64,000 nt of DNA. It comes from Bradyrhizobium ontarionense. Lineage in GTDB: Bacteria > Pseudomonadota > Alphaproteobacteria > Rhizobiales > Xanthobacteraceae. The translations under genes were made by a program, and so were the position numbers. The stretch spans positions 124,001 through 188,000 of the forward strand of contig NZ_CP088156.1 of NCBI RefSeq assembly GCF_021088345.1, read 5' to 3'. The first letter of the stretch is position 1. Each line of letters opens with the position of its first letter. The notes beneath the pieces were generated by a model. It was not told where the DNA came from. It did no database searches and saw only the letters and a list, made by a program, of their open reading frames with translations. Shown here piece by piece: positions 616-47,712 of the stretch.

Positions 616-17026
<16,411 letters not shown>

Positions 17027-35984: not shown

Positions 35985-37760
35985 ATGGTCGATATCCCGT
36001 TGGACACAGTCGCAGGCATTCCGCCGGCTGAAGTGGGCGAGGTTGAACTCTATCATCCGAGAAGCTGGTGGACGAGGTACGTCTTTTCTCAGGATGCCAA
36101 GATTATCGCCGTGCAGTACTCGATCACGGCGATGGCGATCGGAATGGTCGCGCTGGTGCTGTCCTGGCTGATGCGGCTGCAGCTGGGATTCCCCGGTACA
36201 TTCTCATTCATCGATGCGAACCAGTATCTCCAGTTCATCACCATGCACGGCATGATCATGGTGGTCTATCTTCTCACCGCGCTGTTTCTGGGAGGTTTTG
36301 GTAACTACCTTATCCCGCTGATGGTCGGCGCCCGCGACATGGTGTTCCCCTATGTGAACATGCTGAGCTACTGGATCTACCTGCTCGCCGTCGTGGTTCT
36401 GGTCTCGACCTTCTTCGTGCCCGGCGGGCCCACCGGCGCCGGCTGGACCCTGTACCCCCCGCAGGCAATTCTCTCCGGTACTCCCGGGCAGGATTGGGGC
36501 ATCGTCCTCATGCTGGCTTCCCTGATCCTGTTCATCATTGGCTTCACCATGGGCGGGCTGAACTACGTGGTGACGGTGCTGCAGGGGCGTACGCGCGGCA
36601 TGACGTTGATGCGCATGCCGTTGACGGTGTGGGGCATCTTCACGGCCACCGTGATGGCGCTGCTGGCCTTCCCGGCACTGTTCGTCGCCTCGGTCATGCT
36701 GCTGCTCGACCGCCTCTTGGGAACCAGCTTCTTCATGCCTACGCTGGTCGAGATGGGGCAGCTCACCAAGTATGGCGGCGGCAGCCCGATCATGTTCCAG
36801 CACCTTTTCTGGTTCTTCGGTCATCCCGAGGTCTACATCGTCGCCTTGCCGGCCTTCGGCATCATTTCCGATCTGATCAGCGTCCACGCGCGAAAGAACA
36901 TCTTCGGCTATCGCATGATGGTCTGGGCCATCGTGGGAATCGGCGCCCTCAGCTTTGTCGTCTGGGCGCACCACATGTACGTGAGCGGCATGAACCCGTA
37001 TTTCGGGTTCTTCTTTGCCACGACGACGCTCATCATTGCCATCCCGACTGCGATCAAGGTCTACAATTGGGTGCTGACCCTTTGGCGCGGCGACATTCAT
37101 CTCACCATTCCAATGCTGTTCGCGCTGGCGTTCATCGTCACCTTCGTGAACGGCGGCTTGACCGGTCTGTTTCTTGGCAATGTGGTCGTGGACGTTCCGT
37201 TGTCCGACACGATGTTCGTTGTCGCCCATTTTCACATGGTGATGGGTATTGCGCCGATCATGGCCGTGTTCGGCGGACTCTATCATTGGTATCCGAAAGT
37301 CACCGGACGAATGCTCAATGAGGGGCTTGGGCGATTCCACTTCTGGGTCTCGTTCCTCGGCGCCTATGCGATTTTCTTTCCCATGCACTATCTGGGCCTG
37401 CTCGGCATGCCCCGCCGCTATCATGACATCGGCGAAACGTCTTTCGTTCCGGCATCGGCCCATGACCTCAATGCGTTCATGAGCATCGCGGCCCTGATCG
37501 TCGGCTTTGCCCAGCTCGTGTTCCTGTTCAATCTGGTCTGGAGCCTGTTCAAAGGAAAGGAGGCCGGCGGCAATCCCTGGGGAGCCGCATCGCTGGAATG
37601 GCAAACTCCGGAGACCCCGCCGGCGCACGGCAATTGGGGCAAGGAGCTCCCGATCGTCTATCGCTGGGCCTATGATTACAGCGTCCCCGGCGCCGGCAGG
37701 GATTTCGTGCCGCAAAATGAACCACCGGCCGGATTGTCGGCGCAGGGGTCCCACCCATGA
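35985..37760 (+). CDS. coxA: Cytochrome c oxidase subunit I (heme-copper catalytic subunit)
   Basis: 591 residues from ATG 35985 with a GGGAGG site; a TTG at 35937 would extend it. Twelve membrane segments are expected. Low-spin heme ligands are in ITMHGMIM and VAHFHMVMG. CuB ligands are in GHPEVY and WAHHMY. The Tyr of HPEVY can form the His-Tyr cross-link, and its Glu is the D-channel gate, so this is an A1-type oxidase. K-channel Lys (HARKNIFGYRMMVWA) and D-channel Asp (GARDMVFP) are also present. It reduces O2 to water and pumps protons. Its stop overlaps the next start (ATGA). Confidence 0.96.
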   Translation: MVDIPLDTVAGIPPAEVGEVELYHPRSWWTRYVFSQDAKIIAVQYSITAMAIGMVALVLSWLMRLQLGFPGTFSFIDANQYLQFITMHGMIMVVYLLTALFLGGFGNYLIPLMVGARDMVFPYVNMLSYWIYLLAVVVLVSTFFVPGGPTGAGWTLYPPQAILSGTPGQDWGIVLMLASLILFIIGFTMGGLNYVVTVLQGRTRGMTLMRMPLTVWGIFTATVMALLAFPALFVASVMLLLDRLLGTSFFMPTLVEMGQLTKYGGGSPIMFQHLFWFFGHPEVYIVALPAFGIISDLISVHARKNIFGYRMMVWAIVGIGALSFVVWAHHMYVSGMNPYFGFFFATTTLIIAIPTAIKVYNWVLTLWRGDIHLTIPMLFALAFIVTFVNGGLTGLFLGNVVVDVPLSDTMFVVAHFHMVMGIAPIMAVFGGLYHWYPKVTGRMLNEGLGRFHFWVSFLGAYAIFFPMHYLGLLGMPRRYHDIGETSFVPASAHDLNAFMSIAALIVGFAQLVFLFNLVWSLFKGKEAGGNPWGAASLEWQTPETPPAHGNWGKELPIVYRWAYDYSVPGAGRDFVPQNEPPAGLSAQGSHP

Positions 37761-38461
37761 GCGTCATTATCCTGTTCATGGCTGGAATGGTAGCAATCGC
37801 GGGGTGGTGGCTCTCGCAACAGCGACTGACAGCCAAGCCATGGCTGGAGCAGGGAGTGATGGTCGACCTGCGCGAGGAGGGCGTTTCATCGCCCCCCGCC
37901 GCCAAGATCGGATTGGGCGTATTTCTCGCAGTCGTCGGCTCGTTGTTCGCACTCTTCATCAGCGCTTACTCCATGCGCATGACCATGGTGGATTGGCGGG
38001 CGGTGCCGATGCCGAGGCTGCTGTGGTTCAACACAGCCGTCCTGGTCCTGAGCAGTGTGGCGCTGCAAGCGGCATACATGGCCGCGCGCCGGAACGACAT
38101 TGACGGCGTCATCTATGGTCTGTGTGCAGGCGGAGCATCCGTCGTTACATTCCTGATCGGGCAGCTGCTGGCATGGCGCGAGCTGAGCGTCGGGGGGTAT
38201 TTCCTCGCGTCCAATCCAGCCAACTCGTTCTTCTATCTGATTACTGCTGTGCACGGGTTGCATCTGATGGGCGGTCTCGTCGCCCTCGGCAGAACGACCG
38301 CCAAGGTTTGGCATGGAGCGCCGGTGACACAGGTGCGCCTGAGCGTGGAGCTCTGCGCCATCTACTGGCACTTCCTGCTGCTGGTCTGGCTGGTTCTGCT
38401 CGGCCTGCTGACCGGCTGGACGGACAATTTCCTCGACATCTGTCGCCAGTTGCTGAGTTAG
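37757..38461 (+). CDS. coxC: Cytochrome c oxidase subunit III family protein, first copy
   Basis: 234 residues, coupled to coxA by ATGA overlap. Seven hydrophobic segments; typical subunit III pieces are ISAYSMRMTMVDWRAVP, SNPANSFFYLITAVHGLHLMGGLVAL and VELCAIYWHFLLLVWLVLLGLL, the last two resembling helices IV-VII. It starts with an extra N-terminal helix and the polar stretch QRLTAKPWLEQG. Subunit III stabilises subunit I and its proton path. A second, different subunit III follows directly, so this one may be an accessory form. Confidence 0.85.
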   Translation: MSVIILFMAGMVAIAGWWLSQQRLTAKPWLEQGVMVDLREEGVSSPPAAKIGLGVFLAVVGSLFALFISAYSMRMTMVDWRAVPMPRLLWFNTAVLVLSSVALQAAYMAARRNDIDGVIYGLCAGGASVVTFLIGQLLAWRELSVGGYFLASNPANSFFYLITAVHGLHLMGGLVALGRTTAKVWHGAPVTQVRLSVELCAIYWHFLLLVWLVLLGLLTGWTDNFLDICRQLLS

Positions 38462-38477
38462 GGAGGGCGGGGACGAC

Positions 38478-39200
38478 ATGGCAGACACGGCGCTGACAAA
38501 CAACATAGAACCGCCGCCGCAGGCTGCAGGTTGGCGAGCTATTGCCGCCGACTGGTCCTCGGACCAGCGCGCCTTCAAGAACGTTTCCTGGGGGAAGGCC
38601 ATGATGTGGATCTTCCTTCTCAGCGACACCTTCATTTTCAGTTGCTTTCTGCTGTCGTACATGACGGCGCGAATGTCCACGACCGTGCCGTGGCCGAATC
38701 CCAGCGAGGTCTTCGCCCTTAGGATCGGGGGCAAGGAAATCCCGCTCATCCTCATCGCCATCATGACCTTTGTCCTGATCAGCAGCAGCGGGACGATGGC
38801 GATGGCCGTCAACTTCGGCTATCGGCGCGACCGTGTGAAGACGGCAGCCTTGATGTTTGCGACCGCGGCATTCGGCGCGACGTTCGTCGGAATGCAGGCC
38901 TTCGAATGGACCAAGCTGATCATGGAAGGCGTCCGGCCCTGGGGCAACCCCTGGGGTGCGGCCCAGTTTGGCTCAAGCTTCTTCATGATCACCGGCTTCC
39001 ATGGCACCCACGTGACGATCGGCGTGATCTTCCTGATCGCCATTGCGCGAAAGGTTTTGCGGGGAGACTTCGATGTCGAAAGGCGCGGCTTTTTCACGAG
39101 CCGGAAAGGGCACTACGAGATCGTCGAAATCACTGGCTTATACTGGCACTTCGTCGATCTCGTGTGGGTGTTCATCTTTGCGCTTTTTTATCTCTGGTGA
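38478..39200 (+). CDS. Cytochrome c oxidase subunit III family protein, second copy
   Basis: 240 residues, ATG 38478 after a GGGAGGGCGGGGACG ribosome region. It contains GKAMMWIFLLSDTFIFSCFL, FVGMQAFEWTKLI, SSFFMITGFHGTHVTIGVIFL and GLYWHFVDLVWVFIFALFYL, the last two being the classical subunit III (CyoC/CoxC) signatures with the conserved FH-GTH and WHFVD-VW. Alignment by eye suggests this copy is the more canonical of the two. Tandem but dissimilar subunit III genes occur in some proteobacterial oxidase operons. Confidence 0.88.
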   Translation: MADTALTNNIEPPPQAAGWRAIAADWSSDQRAFKNVSWGKAMMWIFLLSDTFIFSCFLLSYMTARMSTTVPWPNPSEVFALRIGGKEIPLILIAIMTFVLISSSGTMAMAVNFGYRRDRVKTAALMFATAAFGATFVGMQAFEWTKLIMEGVRPWGNPWGAAQFGSSFFMITGFHGTHVTIGVIFLIAIARKVLRGDFDVERRGFFTSRKGHYEIVEITGLYWHFVDLVWVFIFALFYLW

Positions 39201-39209
39201 GGTCGCAGC

Positions 39210-39611
39210 ATGACAAACGCCGCGGTACATTTGGAAGCCCAGCAACATTCGCCGCAGGGTCACGCGCATGACGCAGCCGCATCCGAAATCACCCACGCCG
39301 AGGGCCAGCAGCATCCGATCAAGCTTTATCTCGTGGTCTGGGGATGGTTGTTCGTTCTCAGCACCTGCTCGTACCTCGTCGACTATTTCGGCTTCCAGGG
39401 CTATCTCAGATGGTCGCTGATCCTGCTGTTCATGGTGTTGAAGGCTGGCCTGATCGTCGCCGTGTTCATGCACATGGCCTGGGAGCGGCTGGCCTTAACC
39501 TACGCGATCCTGCTGCCGCCGCTGCTGGTGTTGGTCTTCGTGGCGATCATGGTGTTCGAATCCGACTACACGCATCTGCTCCGGGTCTTATTCTTCGCTC
39601 CGACGGCGTAG
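39210..39611 (+). CDS. Cytochrome c oxidase subunit IV (prokaryotic, CyoD-like)
   Basis: 133 residues. A polar, histidine-rich N-terminus (about 40 residues: HLEAQQHSPQGHAHDAAASE) precedes three membrane helices (LYLVVWGWLFVLSTCSYLVD, LRWSLILLFMVLKAGLIVAVFMHM, AILLPPLLVLVFVAIMVFES). The FMHMAWE segment matches the small COX4_pro subunit. It is the last gene of the operon. A hairpin with 7-bp arms (39635-39654) lies just after it. No assembly genes (SURF1, CtaG, CtaB) are present in the window. Confidence 0.85.
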   Translation: MTNAAVHLEAQQHSPQGHAHDAAASEITHAEGQQHPIKLYLVVWGWLFVLSTCSYLVDYFGFQGYLRWSLILLFMVLKAGLIVAVFMHMAWERLALTYAILLPPLLVLVFVAIMVFESDYTHLLRVLFFAPTA

Positions 39612-43479: not shown

Positions 43480-44928
43480 TTAACCTTTGCGGCGGAGCGC
43501 GATGCTGAGCACGCGCAGACGCCGCCAGCCGATCACCATGCCCGTCATGCTGAAGGCCAAGCCGAGTGTGGACAGGCCGACGATGATGAGCGTGCGCAGC
43601 GCCGGATAGGCGAGCAGGGTCGGGAAGTCCAGCGTGTGCAGCGCCTGATACAGCCAGCGATAGACGCGCCTGGAAGGATCGAGCTTATCGAGCACGGCGC
43701 CGGAGGCCGCGTCGACATGATACCAGGTGTCGCCGCAGACCACGCGATAGACCGGCGCATCCGGCACGTCAGAGGCGAACGGATGATCGTCGCCCGGCTC
43801 GACATCGATCGATCTCGCGCAATCGCTGCGAAGGCGGCCCGTCACCGCATTGACATCGGCGGGCTGCAGCAAGCGGCCGATGATCCGCGGCGCCGAGCCG
43901 TCCAGCACCGAGATCTGCTGCTGGCTCAGCGCTCGCCGGGCGCGCTGATGGATACGGCCGCCGAACGCAAACCATTCGATCTCGCGGGCCTCGCCGCGAA
44001 CGGCCGCGAGTGCCGTTGCGGCGAGACCAGTCCAGTCCGGTTCGCCGATGAGGACTTCCTCTTCGGAGGCGGTGAGACGGCCGGTCGCGAACAACCGGCC
44101 ATGGTCCATCGACAGCCAGCCGCTGACGATCCACGTCAGCACGAATTGCGCGCAGAGCAGGCCGGCCCAGTGATGCCACAGGTGCCAGCCCCGGTAGCGC
44201 GATGTCAGCCGCGCCTTGCTCAGTCTCAGCCTGATCGGGCCGAGCAGGGCGCCCGTCACGGCGGCGATGACCGCCGCCAGCGACAGCCACCACACCGTGA
44301 CGTCCCAGGCCGCCCAGTCCTTGCGCAGCAGGGTCGGATAGATCCAATGGACGACGCTGCCGGCATAGTTCCAGGAGCGTTCGAAGCGTGTGGTGTCGAG
44401 CACGACCTCGCCGGTCCGCGAGGAGACGTAGAGCTCGGTGCCATCGCCGTCGTTGAGCGCGATCCGATAGAGTGGTCGATGCGCGTCGAACCGGTTCGGC
44501 ACCGTCCACTGATCGTAAGTGTCGAGCGCTGCAACGGCGGCCCCTGTGGCGTCGATTCCACGCCGTTGTGCCGTGGTGCGCGCAACGGACAAGGCGAGGT
44601 CTGGGTTGGCCACGTCGGCCGTGGCCAGCGTGTCGGCATGAACGGCCACGCTGCGGTCGGCGGTGGAGATCACGTAGACGGGACCGTCCACGCGCTGCCA
44701 CAGTCGGATACGGCCGGGACGATCGATGCCACGCGCGGCGAGGGCCTCTGCTGGGCCGTGCAGGGGTGTGGCGAGGTCGAGCGGCGCGAGCCCGGCGAAC
44801 CGCTTGCTCTCCGTCTGCGCCGGGAACGGCACGTAGTGTATCACGATCCCGGTCGCGAACCACAGCACGAACAATGGACCGAGCGGGATGCTCAACCAGC
44901 GGTGCGTGAGGATCAGCGCCCGGATCAT
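43480..44928 (-). CDS. PepSY-associated transmembrane protein (FsrB/FoxB-like)
   Basis: 482 residues. Four membrane segments: WLSIPLGPLFVLWFATGIVI near the N-terminus, VTVWWLSLAAVIAAVTGALL, LCAQFVLTWIVSGWLSM and a C-terminal LRTLIIVGLSTLGLAFSMTG. Between them are two periplasmic PepSY-like regions (GPVYVISTADRSVAV; PDAPVYRVVCGDTWYHVDAASG). HRW, WHLWHHW and ALHTLDF histidines are spaced as in b-heme-binding ferric-reductase partners (FoxB, PiuB, FsrB). The gene starts 6 nt after the TonB receptor stop, so it shares that operon and its Zur-type control. A job in reducing or releasing the imported metal complex is an inference. Confidence 0.85.
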   Translation of the reverse strand: MIRALILTHRWLSIPLGPLFVLWFATGIVIHYVPFPAQTESKRFAGLAPLDLATPLHGPAEALAARGIDRPGRIRLWQRVDGPVYVISTADRSVAVHADTLATADVANPDLALSVARTTAQRRGIDATGAAVAALDTYDQWTVPNRFDAHRPLYRIALNDGDGTELYVSSRTGEVVLDTTRFERSWNYAGSVVHWIYPTLLRKDWAAWDVTVWWLSLAAVIAAVTGALLGPIRLRLSKARLTSRYRGWHLWHHWAGLLCAQFVLTWIVSGWLSMDHGRLFATGRLTASEEEVLIGEPDWTGLAATALAAVRGEAREIEWFAFGGRIHQRARRALSQQQISVLDGSAPRIIGRLLQPADVNAVTGRLRSDCARSIDVEPGDDHPFASDVPDAPVYRVVCGDTWYHVDAASGAVLDKLDPSRRVYRWLYQALHTLDFPTLLAYPALRTLIIVGLSTLGLAFSMTGMVIGWRRLRVLSIALRRKG

Positions 44929-44934
44929 GCGGCC

Positions 44935-47328
44935 TCAGAACTTGAACGAGGCTTCGACCTCGTAGGTGCGGGGCGCCCCGAGGAAGATCTGATCTGGATA
45001 GAACGGATCGCTCCAGGCCGCATAGCGCTTGTCGGTGACGTTGCGGGCGCGGAAGGTCAGACGTGTGCTGGTTGCGGTGGCGAACATCGGCACCCGCGGC
45101 AGATCGACGAAGGCAAACAGGTCGGCGGTGGTGTAGGCGAGCAGCTTCGCGGTGTTGGCATCGGTGCTCCAGCGGTCGCCGACATGGCGCACCGAGAAGC
45201 CGAGCTCGACCGGCCACCAGCCCGGATTGAGGAAGCGGTAGGAGCCGCCGCCATTGACGATCACGGCGGGGATGTTGGGCGGCGTGTTGCCGGAGAAGGA
45301 GCCGCCGCCCGCGAGATCGTAGTCGGCGTAGCGCGCGCGCACATAGGTGACGTTACCCCACAGCTTGCTCTCCGGCGTCGGCCTGATCGCAGCGGCGATC
45401 TCGATGCCTTGCGATTTCACCTTGCCGGCGAGGTTGAGCTGCTGGCCGGCCTGGGCGCTGTAGACGTTGTTGCGCACGATGTCGAAGGCGGAGAAGGTCC
45501 ACTCGGCCCGCCCGTTCCACAGCAGCTGCTTGACACCGGTCTCGTAGCTGCGTGAGTCCGAAAGCGTCAGGTTCTGCGTCGGGCTCAGCAGGAAGATGCT
45601 GTCGGCCGAGATGTCGGTTGCCGTGGCATATTGGCTATAGAAGGTCGTGCCAGGGAGCGCTTCCCAGGTATAACCGATGCGCCCGGTGACCGGCTGCCAG
45701 CTTGTCGAATAGGGAAAGCCAGGCCTCACGGCGCCGTCCCTGATCCAGTTGCGATCAAGCGTGAACGGGTTGTAGCGCAGGCCGCCGACCAGCGCGAAGC
45801 TGTCCGTGAGCTTCAACCGGTCTTCGAGGTTGAGTGCGACGCTGTCGATGGTGGCGGTCTGCAACTGTGTCCTCAGGTCGCCATAGGTCCCCCGGTCGAA
45901 ACCGACCAACGGGACCGAGTCACCAGGAAAGTTCGCCGCGCCTGGGCGCGTGAAGTCGAGATGCGAGCTCTCGACCGAGGTGACGAGACGGTTGGCGAGA
46001 CCGAGCACGCTGCCGTTCCAGGTGACGTCGGTGATGTTGCCGACCATGTTCTGGTTGTGATGGACGAAGAACCGCTCGCGATCCACCGTGTTGGTGGCTG
46101 CGTTGAAGGCCGACACCTCATTGTTGTACCAGTCGCGGCTGGCATTGTAATTGTAGACTTGGCTTCTCAGCTTGACGTCGTTGCTCAGGTCCCATTCGAA
46201 CCCGCTGCGGACCCAGGATTCCTTGATCGTCTTGTGGCCGTCGACCACGTTGTAGTTGGTCGACAGCGTGCGGCCGTCGATCGTCACGGCACCGAGATCG
46301 GTGCCGTTGTAGGCGGACAACTTGGTGCCGGAGACGATGCCGCTGGTCGCATTGGCGCCGCTGTAGGTGGCCGGCACCAGCGGCGTGCCCTCATAGGGCT
46401 TGGCCTTGTAGTCCTTGAACTCGGCCGCGACGAAGGTCTTGAAGCTGTCGGACAGGCGGTAGCCGAGCTGACCCGAGACGTGCACGTTCTTGAACTCGGT
46501 GTCGTCGATGAAGCCGACCTCCTTGGACCGGCTGATGTCGAAGCGATAGTCGAGCCCTTGGACGGTCGTGCTGCCGCCCGAGCCGAAGCCGCTGCGGAAG
46601 CTGCCGCGCTGGTCGAAGCCGACGAAGGCCTCGTTCCGGACCGGACCGGTATGCGGCGCCTTGGTCACGAAATTGATGGTGCCGCCGACCGCGCCCTGAC
46701 CCGAGATCAGGGAGGAGGGGCCCTTGAGAAACTCGACGCGGTCGAGATTGAAGGTCTCCATCGTCAGCGCGGTGAAGCCGGTCGGGCCGATATTGATGCC
46801 GTTGTAGAGGACGTTGACCTGGTTGCCCTGGAAGCCGCGCATCGCAAAGCCGACGTCGTTCGGCGCATCGCCGGCGCTGACGCCGGTGGCGCCTTTCACC
46901 GCATCGACCGTCGTGTGATAGCCCTGCTCGCGCAGCGTCTCGGCGCCGACCACCTCGAGCGAGGCGGGCACCTCGCGCACCGTGAGGCCCAGCCGGCTTC
47001 CGCTCGCGGGCGTCGCGTTGCTGTTGAGCAGCGTGGCCGCTGCCGTGTCGGAGGAGGCGGCCGATGGACCTGCTGCGGGCAATGGCGCCGCGAGGCGACG
47101 GGGCGCAGGACGCGAGGTTCGATTGGACGTTCGGTTCGGTGATGCCGTACGGCCGGCGGCCTGCCGCTGGCGCGGCGCATCGACCGTAACGTCCGGCAGC
47201 AGCGTGTCGGCGGGCGGCCGGCCGGCCGGATTGGAGGCCGACTGCGCCTGAGCCGCCGGCATGGCCGCCCAGCCTGCTGCCACCAGCCCGATCAGCGATA
47301 TCGACCCCCACACCTCTCGCACGCTCAT
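44935..47328 (-). CDS. TonB-dependent outer-membrane receptor, siderophore-receptor family
   Basis: 797 residues from the ATG at 47326-47328 with a GGGGGCGG ribosome region; the open frame upstream is not used. A signal peptide ends near residue 28 (MPAAQAQS). A long Pro/Ser/Ala-rich linker (to ~115) leads to the plug: LGLTVREVPASLEVVGAETL, MRGFQGNQVNVLYNGINIGP, VEFLKGPSSLISGQGAVGGTINFVTKAP. The barrel ends YEVEASFKF, with the terminal Phe used by the BAM complex. The plug matches TIGR01783-type receptors. The 18-bp Zur-type palindrome upstream suggests it imports a zinc complex or is induced by zinc shortage. It is unlikely to be the dedicated receptor of the NRPS product. Confidence 0.93.
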   Translation of the reverse strand: MSVREVWGSISLIGLVAAGWAAMPAAQAQSASNPAGRPPADTLLPDVTVDAPRQRQAAGRTASPNRTSNRTSRPAPRRLAAPLPAAGPSAASSDTAAATLLNSNATPASGSRLGLTVREVPASLEVVGAETLREQGYHTTVDAVKGATGVSAGDAPNDVGFAMRGFQGNQVNVLYNGINIGPTGFTALTMETFNLDRVEFLKGPSSLISGQGAVGGTINFVTKAPHTGPVRNEAFVGFDQRGSFRSGFGSGGSTTVQGLDYRFDISRSKEVGFIDDTEFKNVHVSGQLGYRLSDSFKTFVAAEFKDYKAKPYEGTPLVPATYSGANATSGIVSGTKLSAYNGTDLGAVTIDGRTLSTNYNVVDGHKTIKESWVRSGFEWDLSNDVKLRSQVYNYNASRDWYNNEVSAFNAATNTVDRERFFVHHNQNMVGNITDVTWNGSVLGLANRLVTSVESSHLDFTRPGAANFPGDSVPLVGFDRGTYGDLRTQLQTATIDSVALNLEDRLKLTDSFALVGGLRYNPFTLDRNWIRDGAVRPGFPYSTSWQPVTGRIGYTWEALPGTTFYSQYATATDISADSIFLLSPTQNLTLSDSRSYETGVKQLLWNGRAEWTFSAFDIVRNNVYSAQAGQQLNLAGKVKSQGIEIAAAIRPTPESKLWGNVTYVRARYADYDLAGGGSFSGNTPPNIPAVIVNGGGSYRFLNPGWWPVELGFSVRHVGDRWSTDANTAKLLAYTTADLFAFVDLPRVPMFATATSTRLTFRARNVTDKRYAAWSDPFYPDQIFLGAPRTYEVEASFKF

Positions 47329-47426
47329 TCCGCCCCCCACCACGGGGACCGGCTGCGCCGGCTCCCGCGTTCCAAGCCTTACGTTCACGACGATGGGGAC
47401 GAGACTTAGTCGAAGTTCTCGGGCGC

Positions 47427-47444
47427 GTAATGTTATAACATTAC
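47427..47444. promoter_or_regulatory. Zur box upstream of the TonB receptor operon
   Basis: Perfect 18-bp palindrome GTAATGTTATAACATTAC, about 100 bp upstream of the receptor ATG. It matches the Zur signals described for alphaproteobacteria (GTAATGTAATAACATTAC and GATATGTTATAACATATC types). TATAAC within it may be the -10, so bound Zur would block the promoter. Confidence 0.8.
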
Positions 47445-47712
47445 ACATCCGACATTCTAACAGAGCCTGTCTCGATCCAGCAACACATGCGAACGATTAG
47501 CGATTGCAACGGGTATCAGCGAGTCGCGAGGCGCGCAATGGCGCTCGGCTGGGGACTCGTCAGGGAGGGCGCAGGCTGGGTCATGGCCATGGCCCGATGG
47601 CGGTGAACGAGCCAGCCAGCCGTCACGAGAGGCCAAGTACGAACGAGCAAATATGAACGTGCCGCCACCCGAAGCGAGTGGCGGCAGCTCGATCGAATCG
47701 AGGAGAACGAGA
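47445..47712. other. Intergenic stretch with a hairpin at 47661-47685
   Basis: About 270 bp without a gene. The arms GCCGCCAC and GTGGCGGC with a 9-nt loop lie 28 nt past the stop of the dehydrogenase gene (minus strand) and may end its transcript, though there is no T run. Nothing else recognised. Confidence 0.4.

Follow-up and report, generated by a model that had tools for sequence, protein, structure and literature searches.

The stretch of DNA analysed here, which we refer to as the window, is 64,000 nucleotides of the Bradyrhizobium ontarionense genome (contig NZ_CP088156.1, positions 124,001 to 188,000), and it contains a two-gene unit with a candidate zinc-responsive operator before it. 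The first gene encodes a CrtA-like TonB-dependent receptor of 797 amino acids (aa) at 44935..47328 on the minus strand, and the second, on the same strand and 6 base pairs (bp) away, encodes a PepSY_TM inner-membrane protein of 482 aa at 43480..44928. Both were assigned from open reading frames (ORFs), domain searches and alignments, which for the receptor were made relative to a solved structure. Upstream lies a perfect 18-bp palindrome, GTAATGTTATAACATTAC, at 47427..47444 (no strand assigned), which motif searches, family and genome scans and an orthologue alignment lead us to read as a Zur-type operator. It is 98 bp upstream of the likely receptor start codon at 47328, and the preliminary description of this locus, which had placed such a palindrome about 100 bp upstream, was accurate on this point. 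The sequence at that start, MSVREVWGSISL, looks by eye like a signal peptide, and the receptors of four close orthologous loci (L014, L015, L016 and L018) align from there. The mechanical ORF start at 47448, which would place the box within the gene, is less likely.

The window, shuffle, genome and family counts rule out a chance match. In the window the palindrome is the sole match at up to three mismatches, and none of 100 shuffled versions contains one. In the 8.44 Mb genome, a single contig designated G000 (contig C1), it occurs once in perfect form, and the only other match within three mismatches is a two-mismatch copy at C1:3254016. When the window is aligned with the four close orthologous loci, 17 of the 18 box columns are invariant, compared with 30/80 in the adjoining flanks. 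At up to two mismatches the motif is present in 103 of 296 family genomes versus 8/296 for a reversed control.

Among the matches listed, we examined the gene context of 29 new loci (L031-L059). In 24 of these listed loci there are zinc genes beside the box: COG0523 genes (16), znuCB (5) and znuA-like genes (3). The remaining five comprise one TonB receptor, one cobW fragment and three boxes without an assigned neighbour (L044, L048 and L049). The znuC genes of the five listed znuCB loci are 73-77% identical to znuC of G000. In congeners, one type of box recurs within a cluster, at the zur, znuA, receptor and COG0523 genes alike, as in L020 at positions 1498, 1225, 5936 and 8542. We also built a scoring matrix from 34 sites (12 distinct), all from other genomes and none before a receptor, and scanned 219 kb of G000, made up of the window plus regions selected for their regulators, znu genes or other boxes. 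The top three sites were the window box, which has the maximal score (a partly circular result, the matrix sites having been found by their likeness to the palindrome), a site at L013:5017 (32.0 bits) and a znuC box at L008:4282 (26.0 bits), with whole-genome chance expectations of 5e-6, 4e-4 and 0.019, respectively. A short His-rich ORF begins 11 bp beyond the end of the znuC box, with znuC, znuB, znuA and a COG0523 gene after it, so the genome scan suggested in the preliminary description does find the znu genes behind a further, weaker box. Its spacing, GTTA-N5-TAAC, might have been taken for the site of another regulator, which we reject: in congeners, znuCB is preceded by a form, GTAATGTTATAATATAAC, that is intermediate between the two. 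The His-rich ORF between this box and znuC (L008:4311-4517; C1:6820310-6820516) is 68 aa long and has one hydrophobic stretch. At the strong L013 site (C1:3254016; region L013:5017-5231), a 43-aa cobW/COG0523 piece begins 66 bp downstream.

A published site agrees with this assignment. A Paracoccus Zur site, GTAATGTAATAACAT, described in excerpts of PMC5387054 as bound in an electrophoretic mobility shift assay, has one difference from the first 15 bases of the window palindrome; the preliminary description had noted a match to alphaproteobacterial Zur signals. Forty-two Rhizobiales Zur sites from RegPrecise are mentioned as having been used in PMC7029138, and passages of PMC2770081 report Zur sites predicted before COG0523 genes, alphaproteobacteria included, and a figure legend there places an outer-membrane gene in clusters of this kind. 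Many Zur-controlled TonB receptors are listed in a review table (PMC6103462), and Caulobacter Zur is described as repressing three TonB receptors and an ABC-2 system (PMC4176598, in part). Given the boxes before znuCB, znuA-like, zur and COG0523 genes of relatives, comparison strongly supports the Zur control that had been proposed for this locus, and we consider it very probable that Zur controls the receptor-PepSY operon.

The receptor itself has the Plug and TonB_dep_Rec domains and is kin to FhuA- and FoxA-type barrels. Some relatives bear siderophore-receptor-type database names, as the preliminary description had expected of automatic annotation; the protein itself scores 181.2 bits against the siderophore-receptor model TIGR01783, below the 223.5 cut-off. 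Its nearest solved relative is CrtA (9RVQ, E 4e-68), which excerpts of PMC12914433 and PMC13038864 describe as a copper-chelate receptor of Bordetella pertussis whose operon holds a PepSY_TM protein, CrpH. Three of the six CrtA pocket residues are identical in the window receptor (E404, H424 and R461, counting the initial M as 1), and the other three, Y130, W265 and Q356 of CrtA, correspond to P182, E313 and V422, so the protein does not carry the full six-residue CrtA set. It does have the other CrtA-family feature, a PepSY_TM gene directly downstream, which according to part of the CrtA paper is found in >75% of CrtA-family loci. H424, the counterpart of CrtA's essential histidine, and E404 are kept in 50/50 receptors that we compared. 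We think it rather likely that the receptor takes a divalent-metal chelate rather than a ferric siderophore. The ratio of nonsynonymous to synonymous substitution rates (dN/dS) for the receptor is 0.16-0.19 in four comparisons within the window's clade.

Relatives of the receptor fall into three classes by the control element before them. A receptor scan of genome contigs gave 17 loci, 15 of them from Bradyrhizobium; L017 is without its upstream part, and a partial match, L030, was left out. Of the 14 Bradyrhizobium loci other than L017, 11 have a Zur box (0-3 mismatches) and three have a perfect GTATGAT-N14-ATCATAC, which we take, from the consensus for such sites, to be a NikR-type operator. 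With the window, the Zur class comprises 12 loci from 11 genomes (L021 and L026 are in one). Six Zur-box loci (L019, L020, L023, L025, L026 and L027) sit among Zur-like, znuA-like or COG0523 genes, and a divergent ABC-2 ATPase with permeases is present as open frames in five of these six, the ATPase being detected by tblastn in all six. In the loci closest to the window (L014, L015, L016 and L018) the zinc cluster is missing; the box, the receptor and PepSY are kept. In L019, a gene for a penicillin-insensitive murein endopeptidase (Peptidase_M74, 1294-2262) adjoins the ABC-2 genes of the zinc cluster.

The NikR-type site occurs at up to one mismatch in 92 of 146 genus genomes, compared with 0/146 for the reversed control, and in G000 a perfect copy ends 33 bp before the ORF of a NikR protein. 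Most of these sites, however, precede genes other than this receptor. We found no close relative of the receptor in 30 further NikR-box loci (L124-L153) or in five larger stretches (L159-L163). Among five stretches of G000 (L154-L158), only L154 holds one, a paralogue about 70% identical to the window receptor (L154:9357-11747; C1:5945356-5947746) behind a NikR box, with divergent ABC-2 genes and no PepSY. Including this locus, the NikR class has four members.

The third class was found with the PepSY protein as query; 35 of 60 genomes of the genus contained a match (E up to 1e-80). We took the 34 outside the window and dropped one, L110, with a cluster like that of L025, as a probable duplicate, leaving 33 loci (L090-L123 except L110). 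All 33, from other Bradyrhizobium genomes, have a cobalamin riboswitch (RF00174) before the receptor and neither a Zur nor a NikR box; in L091, PepSY is upstream of the riboswitch and receptor. In the Zur loci scanned with Rfam (7 of 12) and in all four NikR loci, no cobalamin riboswitch was found ahead of the receptor; in L022 and L024 a riboswitch is present elsewhere, before other genes. In none of the 49 loci (12 Zur, 4 NikR and 33 riboswitch) do two of the three elements occur together in the 700 bp before the receptor, at thresholds of up to three mismatches for Zur, up to two for NikR and a core string for the riboswitch. A Methylobacterium outgroup locus, L029, has a riboswitch followed, ahead of the receptor, by a weak Zur-like site with four mismatches (5641-5658), possibly a transitional form between riboswitch and Zur control. 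A PepSY match adjoins the receptor in 11/12 Zur loci (two of them damaged), in 0/4 NikR loci and in 32/33 riboswitch loci, the last set having been selected by PepSY. Identity to the window receptor is ~69-70% for the NikR receptors, 56-61% for the main riboswitch group, 44-48% for L091, L119 and L120, and 30% for L121-L123.

The pocket differs between these groups. Residue 313 is E in 16/16 Zur and NikR receptors and W in 27/27 of the main riboswitch group, position 423 is H in the former and A in the latter, and in all there are 73 near-fixed differences between the two. R461 is kept in all 43 of these Zur, NikR and main riboswitch receptors and in none of the other seven. In a tree of 50 receptors, the Zur and NikR receptors form one group (99/100) that under midpoint rooting lies among the riboswitch ones. 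The best tree requires two origins of NikR control. The approximately unbiased (AU) test allows the NikR receptors to form a single clade (p 0.169) and only narrowly rejects a single clade of the Zur receptors (p 0.0497), so that two switches hold for the best tree only. A sign test on PepSY loss had only two pairs, with significance out of reach. The receptor-PepSY pair of the window probably descends from a cobalamin-riboswitch (cobalt-type) pair; because the tree rests on midpoint rooting and weak AU results, we call the direction from riboswitch to Zur control only likely.

The PepSY partner has PepSY_TM and PepSY domains (PF03929 at 33.1 bits, above the 28.8 cut-off) and no PDB match by sequence. 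Four histidines stand out in its alignments. H9, H194 and H252 are present in 42/42 rows and H431 in 41/42 (10 Zur and 32 riboswitch rows, with the short pieces of L023, which has an in-frame stop, and of L029 excluded), and the sole exception at H431 is L025, whose C-terminal part is lost. In a second set, consisting of the window protein and 51 of 120 listed homologues, all four are invariant (52/52). By description, their placement resembles that of the haem ligands in FoxB and CrpH. Within the window's clade PepSY is under purifying selection (dN/dS 0.19-0.28, four pairs). Because the four haem-ligand-like histidines are kept, electron transfer is indicated, and the protein is probably an electron carrier. 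Zinc(II) is not reduced in cells, where zinc has no redox chemistry. The idea in the preliminary description that PepSY acts on zinc is for this reason not supported and is the weak link of that reading, and a redox metal or chelate is the more likely substrate. In two further genomes, G024 and G242, PepSY is likewise absent, truncated or with inner stops, and the receptor is otherwise kept.

Our interpretation is a receptor for a divalent-metal chelate, with a redox partner, that probably arose from a cobalt-type pair and came under Zur. Sequence comparison shows the operator and similar boxes before known zinc genes, the pairing of the two genes, the residues of the pocket and the four histidines; Zur repression, chelate uptake and electron transfer are what we infer from them. 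When zinc is sufficient, Zur-Zn would sit on the palindrome and block transcription; when zinc is short, Zur would leave and the two-gene operon would be expressed. The receptor would import a small chelated divalent metal, zinc or possibly a stand-in metal, through a CrtA-like pocket around the invariant histidine, and the PepSY_TM protein would use two haems to carry electrons to a substrate in the periplasm. Freed zinc would then be taken inward by ZnuABC, encoded elsewhere in the genome behind the weaker Zur-type box. As a whole we regard this reading as probable, by a reasonable but not a wide measure. Zur-controlled TonB receptors are already known; the pairing of such a receptor with PepSY and the exchange of switches appear to be new. 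Among the open-access papers listed by our searches, no title or abstract beginning reports a Zur-controlled receptor-PepSY pair or three-way control, a search by which novelty is not proven.

Several observations weigh against this reading. Zinc needs no reductase, and PepSY is lost or damaged in 3/12 Zur-box loci: absent in L020, without its C-terminal part in L025, and interrupted in L023, where both pieces lie in one frame and are thus separated by an in-frame stop. No position is constant in all 12 Zur receptors and constant but different in all four NikR ones, so the receptor protein does not reveal which metal it serves, and nothing in it points to zinc; the zinc import via a bound complex that was suggested earlier is plausible from the kinship to CrtA. 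A simple scan found no sigma-70-type promoter. The matrix is not independent of the palindrome, and its independent part is which genes adjoin its sites; the znuC box of G000 is a match with four mismatches only. Of the four Fur-family proteins encoded by G000, the one that we take to be Zur (L012:4660-5160) has Zur as its best NCBIfam match at 116.9 bits, under the 167-bit cut-off, and the other three are presumably Fur/Mur-like and Irr-like. Finally, a Caulobacter PepSY-TonB-receptor pair, CC2927-2928, is described in part of PMC4176598 as down in a zur mutant and a member of the Fur regulon, so zinc should not be assumed for every PepSY-receptor pair.

Other explanations share parts of this evidence. 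One is that the pair was recruited from a cobalt/cobalamin system and spares zinc by importing cobalt: when zinc is short a cobalt chelate would be brought in, PepSY would reduce Co(III) to Co(II) for release, and cobalt would replace zinc. It draws on the 33 homologous receptors behind a cobalamin riboswitch, 32 of them with an adjacent PepSY (in a set selected by PepSY), on the riboswitch of the outgroup L029, on the absence of PepSY from all four NikR-box loci, and on Pseudomonas aeruginosa, which according to excerpts of PMC11481552 offsets zinc shortage by Zur-controlled import of cobalt-pyochelin. Yet the pocket differs from that of the main riboswitch group at residue 313 and at the other near-fixed positions, the riboswitch class may import cobalamin itself, and PepSY may be a passenger, all of which leave this explanation doubtful, with an appreciable chance of being right. 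A broader version, to which we give slightly more but still limited credence, is that one cobalt-derived receptor-reductase family has come to serve zinc and nickel through a swap of control elements alone. The receptor would then be promiscuous for metals and regulation would set the metal; under Zur, PepSY would reduce a redox metal, most likely Co(III), and cobalt or the freed chelator would ease the zinc shortage. If this were true, the 'copper filter' histidine of CrtA would be a general metal-chelate ligand. That PepSY came along with the receptor as a passenger and plays no part in zinc shortage is compatible with Zur control of the receptor and agrees with the PepSY losses in Zur-box loci and its absence under NikR; we consider it unlikely, given that PepSY is open in the window and in four close orthologues, with all four histidines and low dN/dS.

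Two explanations set zinc aside. A CrtA/CrpH-like copper importer with a copper reductase could serve a cytochrome oxidase, since CrtA is the nearest solved relative, H424, E404 and R461 are kept, CrpH is described as supporting haem-copper oxidases (PMC12914433 and PMC13038864, in part), and genes for cytochrome c oxidase subunits III and IV (COX3 and COX4) lie at 37757-39611, ~4 kb from PepSY. We judge it improbable: the operator type is common to znu, zur and COG0523 genes, congener pairs lie in zinc clusters, half of the CrtA pocket residues differ, and the next upstream gene encodes an NAD-binding dehydrogenase and no regulator (no search was aimed at CruR). A conventional receptor for ferric siderophores, paired with a FoxB/HiuB-type reductase, would agree with the database names of some relatives and the FhuA/FoxA-type barrel, with the known PepSY_TM proteins, HiuB among them, that are described as reducing ferrisiderophores, and with the Fur-regulon pair of Caulobacter (PMC4176598, in part). 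The Zur-type box, the score under the TIGR01783 cut-off and the zinc-cluster context of congeners all speak against it, and we think it very improbable.

Whichever metal is carried, this family separates the receptor from its regulator: homologous receptors that share the pocket histidine occur under switches of the zinc, nickel and cobalamin types, and one genome has two of these. With homologous receptors behind different switches, whether pocket or switch decides the choice of metal becomes a directly testable question. Members of the family may import metal chelates in general, each serving the metal that its switch dictates, and the copper-filter role proposed for the CrtA histidine may be too narrow. 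In addition, a protein of a haem-reductase family in a zinc-starvation operon is not explained by the zinc-uptake models that we considered.

Comparison with known systems places the operon between several of them. The CrtA-CrpH operon of B. pertussis (PDB 9RVQ and 9RVX) has the same order, a TonB-dependent chelate receptor and then a PepSY_TM gene, and shares three pocket residues (the essential histidine, one glutamate and one arginine), but it is copper-controlled and includes cruR, whereas a Zur-type operator precedes the window pair. By their description, Caulobacter crescentus znuK/znuGHI, znuL and znuM are likewise Zur-repressed TonB receptors in an alphaproteobacterium, and no PepSY gene is listed with them. 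Caulobacter znuK adjoins ABC-2 genes, as do the receptors of several congeners, unlike the window copy. The Bradyrhizobium NikR-box and riboswitch relatives have homologous receptors, the riboswitch ones with PepSY too, but differ in their control element, in the lack of PepSY under NikR, and in the W (F in L121-L123) that riboswitch relatives have in place of E313. The ferrisiderophore reductases FoxB, FsrB and HiuB are of the PepSY_TM family and have four membrane histidines by description; they are described as acting on ferric siderophores, whereas the window PepSY stands behind a Zur-type operator. P. aeruginosa CntO/ZrmA and PA2911 are also Zur-controlled TonB receptors for metal chelates, but CntO is distant in sequence (E 1.6e-21), and no metallophore gene is among the window neighbours that we identified. 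A search for opine dehydrogenase (PF10100) had no match in the genome (0/1), and the control likewise matched in 0/14 genomes.

One further feature lies 43 bp upstream of the operator. This is a 39-bp block on the minus strand (47488..47526) that is unique in the genome at up to three mismatches. Its 22-bp core is present, among the loci compared, only before the window receptor and the orthologous receptors of L014, L015, L016 and L018, and the block may be a second regulatory site.

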